Assembly (NCBI GenBank): GCA_017550765.1
Contig: JAFZOC010000234.1
Span: 1-5,221, forward strand
Direction of reading: 5' to 3'
Origin: Oscillospiraceae bacterium
Lineage (GTDB): Bacteria; Bacillota_A; Clostridia; Oscillospirales; Oscillospiraceae
DNA length: 5,221 bases
Within the stretch, counting starts at the first letter, position 1; each line of letters opens with the position of its first letter. The translations under genes were made by a program, and so were the position numbers. The notes beneath the pieces were generated by a model. That model was not told the DNA's origin. It ran no database searches and saw only the letters and a list, made by a program, of their open reading frames with translations. Positions 2,841-4,377 of the stretch are shown here, piece by piece.

Positions 2841-2871
2841 TTCGGTCCCCTCCCGTTCTTGTCTCGCTCTC

Positions 2872-2900
2872 AGCATACCACAGCGGACGCGCGGAGGGAA
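2872..2900 (-). promoter_or_regulatory. Candidate promoter of the MBL-fold gene
   Basis: Read on the minus strand there is an extended -10, TGG-TATGCT (hexamer at 2872-2877). A weak -35, TTCCCT (2895-2900), lies 17 nt further upstream. The predicted start near 2865 leaves a leader of about 25 nt. The -10 matches well and the -35 poorly. Confidence 0.4.
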
Positions 2901-2934
2901 GCCCCTTCCGCGCCAGCCCCGGCCTGTGTCGGAC

Positions 2935-2953
2935 GGTCCACGCTCTGTGGACG
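2935..2953. promoter_or_regulatory. Palindromic operator candidate, copy 1
   Basis: GGTCCAC-gctct-GTGGACG contains a perfect 6-bp inverted repeat (2936-2941 and 2947-2952) around 5 nt. The same motif occurs at 4265-4283. Here it lies 21 nt before the TATCCT of the rightward HTH promoter, centred near -42 of its predicted start. It is also about 79 bp upstream of the predicted start of the divergent MBL-fold gene. Two copies with identical spacing to a -10 make a regulator binding site likely. The regulator is not identified; the neighbouring HTH protein is the obvious candidate. Confidence 0.65.
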
Positions 2954-2973
2954 ACGGGCGGACCGCGGCGCGG

Positions 2974-2979
2974 TATCCT
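2974..2979 (+). promoter_or_regulatory. Candidate -10 of the HTH regulator promoter
   Basis: TATCCT is one of the few AT-containing hexamers in this GC-rich spacer. No recognisable -35 lies 16-18 nt upstream (acgacg at 17 nt), while the palindrome half-site GTGGAC ends 21 nt upstream. That is typical of an activator-dependent promoter. The predicted start near 2986 gives a leader of about 84 nt. Confidence 0.4.
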
Positions 2980-3010
2980 GTACCCGCGGCCTGTGCGCCC
3001 GACGGGGCCC

Positions 3011-3048
3011 GCAGGGCAGGCGCACGGGCCTCGCCCCGCCTGCCCCGC
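3011..3048 (+). other. Stable hairpin in the HTH gene leader, just before the ribosome site
   Basis: GGGCAGGCG at 3014-3022 pairs perfectly with CGCCTGCCC at 3037-3045. GGGC at 3026-3029 pairs with GCCC at 3033-3036 inside it, and GC/GC closes the base across one mismatch. The hairpin ends 7 nt before the AGGAAGGAG ribosome site. It may affect translation or mRNA stability. No T tract follows, so it is not a terminator. Confidence 0.45.
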
Positions 3049-3054
3049 TGCCAG

Positions 3055-3063
3055 AGGAAGGAG
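3055..3063 (+). promoter_or_regulatory. Ribosome binding site of the HTH regulator
   Basis: AGGAAGGAG lies 6 nt before the ATG at 3070. It decides the start: the frame is open as far back as 2806, but that extension would run through the palindrome and promoter. Confidence 0.75.
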
Positions 3064-3069
3064 AAGACC

Positions 3070-3978
3070 ATGACCCGAGAAGAGATCTTTGCCAGCAACC
3101 TCCGCTGTCTCCGGGAGGCCTATGGTGAGACCCAGGAGGAGATGGCCCTGGCCCTGGGGATCTCCAAGAACGCCATCTCCAACTACGAGTGCGGCCGCCG
3201 CATGCCGAAGCCCGAACTGCTGGCCCGGATCGCGGAGCATCTGGCCTGCTCCGTGGAGGAACTGCTCTGCGAGGACCAGTCTGCCCTGCTGCGCGTGGCT
3301 CCGGACCCGCAGGCCCTGCGCAGCGTCCTGCGGACGATGCTGCCCGTGTTCTGTACCGAGCAGGCCCTGGAGAGCGAGCCTTTCCGCCGGGGCCTGCAGG
3401 CGCACAGATCCCTGTGGGCCTGTTTCGCGCCGGGTCATCCGGACAGCGGGCAGGGCGCTGCTCTGCTCTTCGACGCGCTGGACGCCTACGAAGACGTGAC
3501 CGAGGGCCCCGGCCGCATGGAAGCCGTCGCCAACACCCTGTCCCTCTGGTGTCTGCTGCATCTGATGCTGCACAGGGCCCCCGAGCTCCTCGACGCCGAG
3601 AGCGCCCCGCTGGCGCTGCTGCGGAGAACGGACCGGCAGCTGGACCGGGACATCGAAACGGAGCTCGCCCGGCGCGAAGAGAGCCCCGCCCTGGACCGAG
3701 AACGGCAGGCCGCTGTCCGGGAGCTGGACGATCCGGAGCACCAGCGCAAGTTCTTCGCGCTGCTCCGGCTCCTGAAGGCCTCGCCCCGCTGGGCCTACGC
3801 GGCGGACTATCTCCTTGCCCTGCGCTACCTTCTGGACATGGTCCCCAACGGTCTGGGGCCGGAGAGCAACGCCCGGATCGGCGCGGAGATGATGGCGTCC
3901 TTCGCCCGGCTGGGGAACCGCCTGGCGAGGCGGATCCGGCGCGCCGGCCGGGAGCTCTGGCGACCGGAGACCGTCTGA
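3070..3978 (+). CDS. XRE-family helix-turn-helix regulator with long C-terminal helical domain
   Basis: A complete 302-residue protein. Residues about 6-66 form an XRE/Cro-type HTH: NLRCLREAYGETQEEMALAL, then GISKNAISNYECGRRMPKPE as the recognition region, then LARIAEHLACSVEELL. This is a DNA-binding domain that usually works as a dimer on palindromes. The remaining 235 residues are mostly helical by composition, without membrane spans or a known catalytic motif. The best-structured part is about 226-290, with KFFALLRLLK, a YLLALRYLLD helix and IGAEMMASFARLGN. I do not recognise a named domain there; a ligand-sensing or oligomerisation role is a guess. The start is set by the ribosome site. 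It diverges from the MBL-fold gene, and a palindrome sits 117 bp before its start codon. A second copy of that palindrome precedes the zinc-ribbon gene, so self-regulation plus control of that gene is plausible but untested. The HTH assignment is secure. Confidence 0.93.
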   Translation: MTREEIFASNLRCLREAYGETQEEMALALGISKNAISNYECGRRMPKPELLARIAEHLACSVEELLCEDQSALLRVAPDPQALRSVLRTMLPVFCTEQALESEPFRRGLQAHRSLWACFAPGHPDSGQGAALLFDALDAYEDVTEGPGRMEAVANTLSLWCLLHLMLHRAPELLDAESAPLALLRRTDRQLDRDIETELARREESPALDRERQAAVRELDDPEHQRKFFALLRLLKASPRWAYAADYLLALRYLLDMVPNGLGPESNARIGAEMMASFARLGNRLARRIRRAGRELWRPETV

Positions 3979-4002
3979 GCGGGACGTATCGGCAGCGCCG
4001 CA

Positions 4003-4029
4003 GACGACCGCCTGCGCCCGCGGCCACGC
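4003..4029. repeat. 27-nt direct repeat, copy 1
   Basis: The unit begins GACGACCGCCTGCGCC and ends GCGGCCACGC. It matches 4067-4093 at 26 of 27 positions, the only difference being C/T at the 17th base. The two copies are offset by 64 bp. Confidence 0.7.
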
Positions 4030-4066
4030 CCCCAGCCGCGCCAGAGCCGCCGCCGGGGGTCCGACG

Positions 4067-4093
4067 GACGACCGCCTGCGCCTGCGGCCACGC
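4067..4093. repeat. 27-nt direct repeat, copy 2
   Basis: Second copy of the unit at 4003-4029, 26/27 identical. The 37-bp sequence between the copies is unrelated GC-rich DNA. Only two copies are present, so this is not a CRISPR array. Confidence 0.7.
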
Positions 4094-4124
4094 GCCCCCT
4101 GTCCATGGGCTCCCATGAGCAGAA

Positions 4125-4157
4125 CGATCCCCGTGACGTGTTAGGTCACGGGGATCG
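4125..4157. terminator. Perfect 13-bp hairpin downstream of the HTH gene
   Basis: CGATCCCCGTGAC at 4125-4137 pairs perfectly with GTCACGGGGATCG at 4145-4157 around the 7-nt loop gtgttag. It is the strongest stem between the HTH stop codon and the next promoter and may end HTH transcripts. However, the sequence after it is gaaacgtgagg rather than a T tract, so an mRNA-stabilising 3' hairpin or a protein-binding palindrome is equally possible. Confidence 0.45.
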
Positions 4158-4161
4158 AAAC

Positions 4162-4185
4162 GTGAGGGGGCCCCACCCCCCTCAC
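4162..4185. repeat. Perfect 9-bp hairpin, adjacent to the 4125-4157 hairpin
   Basis: GTGAGGGGG at 4162-4170 pairs with CCCCCTCAC at 4177-4185 around a 6-nt loop. It starts 5 nt after the preceding hairpin, so a transcript would carry two stacked stems. No T tract follows. Confidence 0.5.
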
Positions 4186-4264
4186 CCCTCATCCGGCCCT
4201 GGACGGCGCCGCCAGGGCTTCTGCGGCCTGGCCGTCCGGGACTGTCCGGGCCGTCCCTTCCCTC

Positions 4265-4283
4265 GGTCCACAGAACGTGGACG
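4265..4283. promoter_or_regulatory. Palindromic operator candidate, copy 2
   Basis: GGTCCAC-agaac-GTGGACG has the same 14 outer bases as the motif at 2935-2953, while the central 5 nt are different. The half-site GTGGAC ends 21 nt before the candidate -10 TAGGAT, exactly as at the HTH promoter. The centre lies near -42 of the predicted transcription start. Conserved arms with a free spacer are the usual sign of a dimeric regulator site. Confidence 0.65.
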
Positions 4284-4300
4284 CGATCCGGGCGAGAGCC

Positions 4301-4309
4301 TGCTAGGAT
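4301..4309 (+). promoter_or_regulatory. Extended -10 of the zinc-ribbon gene promoter
   Basis: TGC-TAGGAT matches an extended -10. No -35 is found at 17 nt (acgcga). The predicted start near 4316 gives a leader of about 62 nt that contains a small GGCCC/GGGCC hairpin (4318-4333). Confidence 0.45.
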
Positions 4310-4364
4310 GATAGAACGGCCCCGCAGAGGGCCGGCAGACAGGACAAGTCTTTGGATCTTTGAG

Positions 4365-4370
4365 AGGAGG
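4365..4370 (+). promoter_or_regulatory. Ribosome binding site of the zinc-ribbon gene
   Basis: AGGAGG lies 7 nt before the ATG at 4378. It rules out an in-frame TTG at 4360, which would overlap this site. Confidence 0.8.
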
Positions 4371-4377
4371 AACGAAC

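Follow-up and report, generated by a model that had tools for sequence, protein, structure and literature searches.

Genes and palindromes of the locus

The window, that is the whole stretch of 5,221 nt analysed here from an Oscillospiraceae bacterium (contig JAFZOC010000234.1), has a GC content of 69 percent and carries the genes and sequence features listed in Table 1. The starts at 3070 (XRE-family regulator) and 4378 (zinc-ribbon protein) are our choice within longer open frames, and the gaps around the two palindromes (2841-3069 and 3979-4377) both lie between genes.

Table 1. Features of the window and arms of the corresponding palindromes in related genomes
Feature	Sequence or remark	Position	Strand
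DUF4129 protein gene
SRAP protein gene
Metallo-beta-lactamase-fold protein gene			minus
Operator-like palindrome, site 1, 5' of XRE gene	GGTCCAC-GCTCT-GTGGACG	2935..2953	+
-10-like hexamer of site 1	TATCCT, 27 nt after right-arm start	2974..2979	+
XRE-family regulator gene	302 aa	3070..3978	+
Perfect 12-bp inverted repeat, between XRE gene and site 2	7-nt loop; sequence read directly	4126..4156	+
Operator-like palindrome, site 2, 5' of zinc-ribbon gene	GGTCCAC-AGAAC-GTGGACG	4265..4283	+
-10-like hexamer of site 2	TAGGAT, TGC in front (extended -10), 27 nt after right-arm start	4304..4309	+
Zinc-ribbon DUF6591 gene, probable target	210 aa	4378..5010	+
Palindrome arms in G131	GTTCAC/GTGGAC
Palindrome arms in G186	TTTCAC/GTGAAA
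Palindrome arms in G440	TTTCAC/GTGAAC
Palindrome arms in G634	GTCAAC/GTTGTC
Palindrome arms in G713	CTTCAC/GAGAAG

A sequence-only reading of the window had pointed out two intergenic palindromes with identical arms and a constant 21 nt between GTGGAC and a -10-like hexamer. Both observations were reproduced: each site matches GGTCCACNNNNNGTGGACG with 0 mismatches, and the re-measured distance is 21 nt at both sites, so that 27 nt separate the start of the right arm from the hexamer. Using TANNNT as a loose definition of the -10, we found no such hexamer at any other spacing between 12 and 49 nt from each site. The best -35 (spacers of 16-18) agrees with TTGACA at just 3/6 positions in the site 1 promoter and 2/6 in the site 2 promoter, and the earlier remark that neither promoter has a -35 therefore holds.

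Without regard to sequence, the window holds seven perfect 6-N5-6 palindromes; what is unusual is that two of them share the same 12 arm letters, are both intergenic and both lie 27 nt from a hexamer. At ≤3 mismatches GGTCCACNNNNNGTGGACG is found at 5 places in the window, 2 of them being sites 1 and 2 read in reverse, while shuffled windows (n=200) gave a mean of 0.71 such matches and reached 5 in 1/200. The exact GTCCAC-N5-GTGGAC occurs once in one of 19 related genomes (about 1.8-3.1 Mb) and is absent from the other 18.

Other repeats were also noted. The 12-bp inverted repeat behind the XRE gene is possibly the end of the XRE transcript, though it has no T tract, and a 31-nt direct repeat (4003-4033 / 4067-4097, 94 percent) is present in the same gap. 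Between the SRAP and metallo-beta-lactamase-fold genes there is a 49-nt inverted repeat (1808-1856 / 2045-2093) with 78 percent complementarity and arms 188 nt apart, possibly a MITE-like element.

The XRE302 protein family

The 302-aa protein (XRE302) has an XRE-type helix-turn-helix at about residues 7-66, followed by an all-helical C-terminal domain; by our count 5 helices belong to the HTH and 11 more have at least 9 residues, one 5-residue helix being ignored. Neither a Pfam match nor a TPR profile match was obtained for the C-terminal domain, and the family carries no NCBIfam name, only sub-cut-off NCBIfam matches being found. ComR and PrgX top the Foldseek list, but nothing reaches E 0.001.

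The family looks rare. A first large protein search, with about 8000 scored candidates, yielded at least 3 XRE302 proteins including that of the window, and a search with an alignment as query (again about 8000 candidates scored) at least 12 proteins, 6 of which, the window protein included, stood far above the rest, which matched in the HTH only. With scoring limited to the top 5 or 6 candidates of each genome, at least 2 full-length genes were found in 400 genomes of the family to which G004 belongs and at least 4, one of them already known, in 394 genomes of an order, while further searches over 3, 391, 3 and 20 genomes added nothing. Homologues share 26-43 percent identity with the window protein. 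A simple RBS rule detected no RBS-preceded ORF of 12-60 aa within 500 nt of the window XRE gene; over six XRE302 loci the same rule, applied without a signal-peptide program, gave 5 propeptide candidates, none of them convincing.

Palindromes at XRE302 genes of related genomes

All six XRE302 loci with readable DNA, the window among them, carry a palindrome with at least 5/6 arm pairs at the 3' end of the regulator gene or after it (arms in Table 1). It lies inside the last regulator codons in G131, spans the gene end in G713 and follows the gene in G186, G440 and G634; in a protein-level comparison the tails of two further proteins, P0061 and P0062, resemble the box-encoding tail of G131. The spacing to TANNNT is 27 nt at five of the six loci and 28 nt in G131. 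In the window, site 2 is found about 290 nt past the XRE stop, as opposed to the tight coupling at the other loci. T2, A5, C6 and G12 do not vary among the 7 sites, and G634 departs from the YCAC core that had been noted beforehand. A partial -35 (4-5 of 6 positions) is present at 4/5 of the relatives' sites, and those promoters may thus fire unaided. Near the XRE302 gene of G186 (L145, 8739-10110) we also observed a gene for a Tox-GHH nuclease-domain protein and one for a member of SUKH-1, a family that includes many immunity proteins.

The rule had already been noted when G440, G634 and G713 were added, which makes these three out-of-sample. Shuffles that reached 5 pairs at exactly 27 nt numbered, per 1000, 0 for the window, 20 for G186, 51 for G440, 41 for G713 and 84 for G634, with no match at this distance in G131 itself; at 26-28 nt they numbered 16 for the window, 16 for G131, 50 for G186, 145 for G440, 117 for G713 and 177 for G634. 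The three out-of-sample loci are thus each weak alone, while the combined p is 1.7e-5 at 26-28 nt and 1.9e-5 at 27 nt only, with G131 counted as a miss. As control served 28 other XRE loci minus L096, for which tblastn found no HTH (one of those kept, L112, is short, with 148 nt). These gave 0/27 palindromes at 27 nt and 2/27 at 26-28 nt, a difference from the XRE302 genes with Fisher exact p = 2.5e-5 in either spacing comparison.

This family-wide layout strengthens the proposal that the dimeric regulator acting near -42 is the XRE protein whose gene lies between the sites. A different dimeric regulator, encoded elsewhere and having the XRE gene merely as one of its targets, seems quite unlikely to us, since it would not account for similarly spaced palindromes at or just behind the five further XRE302 genes, among whose first downstream genes no similarity was seen, nor for their scarcity at the control XRE genes. 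The sequence-only reading also had the protein acting on its own gene as well as on the zinc-ribbon gene. When 250 nt 5' of the regulator gene were scanned, a palindrome was found at 1/6 loci, namely the window. Autoactivation is for this reason the less certain part, and self-control is so far a feature of this locus only.

Most zinc-ribbon orthologues carry a different palindrome

The nearest relatives of the zinc-ribbon protein come mostly from rumen MAGs labelled Oscillospiraceae, Ruminococcaceae or Clostridiales. We compared up to 320 nt upstream of 15 orthologues (L001-L011, L024, L047, L119 and L120; L010 offers just 128 nt, and for L119 and L120 the gene start is placed only approximately), leaving out other zinc-ribbon loci, most of which match in the C-terminal domain alone. 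The expectation that the window motif recurs upstream of these orthologues failed: GTCCAC-N5-GTGGAC was found at 0/15, the best match having 4 mismatches. Instead, 11/15 carry TTCCCACC-N5-GGTGGGAA with at most 1 mismatch, and at all 11 sites a TANNNT hexamer comes 27 nt after the first base of the right-half GTGG (or GTGA). Read as 6-N5-6 the distance is 28 nt in 11/11, one base more than in the window and the same as in G131. No such palindrome, and no 6-N5-6 of any kind with TANNNT at 26-28 nt, was seen at the remaining orthologues, L009, L011, L119 and L120. In these comparisons the window motif goes with the regulator, not with the target gene.

The gene 5' of the zinc-ribbon gene encodes a conserved protein of about 155 aa, here called fam2, in 12/13 relatives first taken; the contig of L010 ends at this point, so that fam2 is present in 12/12 relatives with room for it (L001-L009, L011, L024 and L047). 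It was not found in the window. Five members scanned gave no Pfam family above cut-off, and when fam2 was compared with the XRE302 family and with PDB folds, no homology to the former and no match among the latter was detected; it is a candidate for the regulator of the TTCCCACC palindrome. The palindromes present in relatives accordingly differ from that of the window and follow a different gene, in a register that is almost unchanged. A scan of 12 relative genomes located TTCCCACC-N5-GGTGGGAA at 1-5 places per genome with at most 2 mismatches and at 0-2 with at most 1 (zero in G010 and G012). A second perfect copy in G001 marks a second zinc-ribbon gene, and a second copy with 2 mismatches in G005 marks a duplicated promoter.

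Some of these loci show further rearrangements. L005 has an inserted stretch between fam2 and the zinc-ribbon gene, and within 5360-6010 the zinc-ribbon promoter (palindrome and -10) occurs twice, the upstream copy with 2 mismatches and with other sequence in between. L047 (5717-6000) is the second zinc-ribbon copy of the genome that holds L001; palindrome and -10 are kept, and a hairpin-rich stretch parts the promoter from the gene.

In GC-rich DNA palindromes of this kind might simply be RNA hairpins, terminators or chance repeats, which the number of perfect 6-N5-6 palindromes in the window and the extra flanking bases that lengthen the palindrome in several zinc-ribbon relatives (outer arms of up to 8 pairs) would fit. 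Against this, no T tract follows either window site, no gene reads towards site 1, the G131 site is inside the end of the regulator coding region and the distance to the -10 is nearly constant, and we regard such an origin as highly improbable.

Genes behind the palindromes

The window target has an N-terminal zinc ribbon (PF13240) and a C-terminal DUF6591 (PF20234), the latter scoring 110.9 bits against a Pfam cut-off of 27.1. A transmembrane stretch near residue 50 is possible, with a borderline hydropathy (top 19-residue value 1.47). In the literature searched no papers on DUF6591 were found. At the other XRE302 loci we looked at the first downstream gene that is preceded by an RBS. Its product is a small protein with a hydrophobic segment (2.0-2.3) in G131, G440 and G634 and a lipobox protein in G713. 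In G186 the first such gene starts 332 nt past the -10, behind a frame of about 90 codons that lacks a clear start; its product is larger, again has a hydrophobic segment and matches DUF6591 (E 2.3e-11). That the targets of the window and of G186 both match PF20234 speaks for our preferred explanation; that the matches cover different parts of the profile, positions 6-95 in G186 and 134-226 in the window target, counts against it. The first downstream genes of the five other loci show no mutual similarity. G440 and G634 have in common a second downstream gene of 61-64 aa (66 percent identical; loci L147 and L148), for which the L148 copy gave no Pfam match, and among the other ORFs compared no similarity between loci was detected at E 0.01.

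Comparison with known regulators and proposed mechanism

Lambda CI has an XRE-type HTH and contacts sigma region 4 at PRM; it also represses from neighbouring operators, and its C-terminal domain is cleavable. Its operator OR2 (record J02459) has the geometry of the window sites: it is a 17-bp 6-N5-6 palindrome with CAC/GTG and 5/6 pairs, and from the start of its right arm to the -10 of PRM the distance is 27 nt. Unlike CI, XRE302 has a C-terminal domain predicted to be helical, and the window lacks a three-operator array.

ComR of streptococci, an RRNPP regulator, is similar in its size of about 300 aa and in its XRE HTH with an all-helical C-terminal domain, described in PMC5131891 as TPR1-5 plus a cap helix. 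PMC4072589 gives the ComR search pattern in S. suis as GACA N4 TGTCCTG N20 TA, which is also 27 nt, and states that the -35 is missing from ComR-box promoters. The box lies between comR and comS, as the palindrome here lies after the regulator gene. The two systems differ in the centre of the box (N4 in ComR, N5 here) and in the targets, which here are neither a pheromone nor a sigma factor; moreover, XRE302 matches no TPR profile, and the RBS rule gave no pheromone gene that convinced us. With 302 aa the protein is within the range of about 250-500 aa that PMC10075063 gives for RRNPP receptors; an adjacent secreted propeptide gene was not found with the simple RBS rule. The fam2 system has the same order of gene, palindrome, -10 and DUF6591 zinc-ribbon gene, with different palindrome letters and a palindrome centre one base further upstream.

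With an operator centre predicted near -42, a fixed spacing and a -35 that is poor in the window and partial at most relatives' sites, the layout is that of class II activation, and since its geometry agrees with OR2-PRM and the ComR box, it suggests that in the window both the gene of the zinc-ribbon protein and that of the regulator are activated in this way. We consider it fairly probable that XRE302 is a class II activator in the manner of lambda CI and ComR, has an operator of its own and has taken over the DUF6591 membrane gene. A dimer would bind GTCCAC-N5-GTGGAC at sites 1 and 2 and, placed beside promoters in which a -10 is present and a -35 is weak or lacking, would recruit RNA polymerase, probably via sigma region 4 as CI does at PRM. 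Expression of the zinc-ribbon membrane protein would thereby be switched on, as would, in this organism, that of the regulator itself in a positive loop. Sites, spacing, linkage and family-wide conservation are seen in the sequence itself, and from them we infer binding, dimerisation, direction of effect and replacement of fam2. The absence of the motif at all 15 zinc-ribbon orthologues, the restriction of a site 5' of the regulator gene to the window, the distance of site 2 from the XRE gene, the 28 nt in G131, the weak shuffle results of G440, G634 and G713 and the looseness of TANNNT count against the proposal, as does the partial -35 at most relatives' sites, which makes a strict need for the activator less certain.

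Repression is the main rival. Many XRE-family proteins are repressors, and the PDB matches and sub-cut-off NCBIfam matches of XRE302 include many repressors and antitoxins. The protein would then bind both sites and block polymerase at the upstream edge of the promoter, site 1 serving negative autoregulation and site 2 keeping the membrane protein off until a signal arrives. The partial -35 beside the right arm at most relatives' sites would suit such a role, but a centre near -42 adjoins the -10 and spacer rather than covering them, the 27 nt spacing is that of two activator sites, and the window promoters have almost no -35; we therefore hold repression to be rather unlikely.

If XRE302 is an activator, regulator gene and operator behind it would form one cassette, which precedes various genes, most of whose products have membrane or lipoprotein features. 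More tentatively, such a cassette may be portable and capture whichever gene comes next, often an envelope-protein gene, since its operator would place polymerase at a set 27-28 nt further on. The copy in the window occupies the position that fam2 and the other palindrome hold in relatives, and it might have displaced both before the DUF6591 gene, a like-for-like rewiring in which the geometry is nearly kept while protein and DNA code are changed. The helical C-terminal domain may sense a peptide or a cell-envelope signal.

The proposed mechanism is of a known kind; the family and the wiring are new. The regulator gene and its two sites look like a small, self-contained switch that probably turns the neighbouring gene on. 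The unnamed XRE302 family gains a testable DNA code and target rule, namely a palindrome 27-28 nt before a -10 at or after the end of the gene, and a natural case is provided of orthologous promoters whose geometry is almost preserved with different regulator genes and palindromes. If the proposed activation is true, a control circuit would be assigned to the zinc-ribbon DUF6591 membrane protein.
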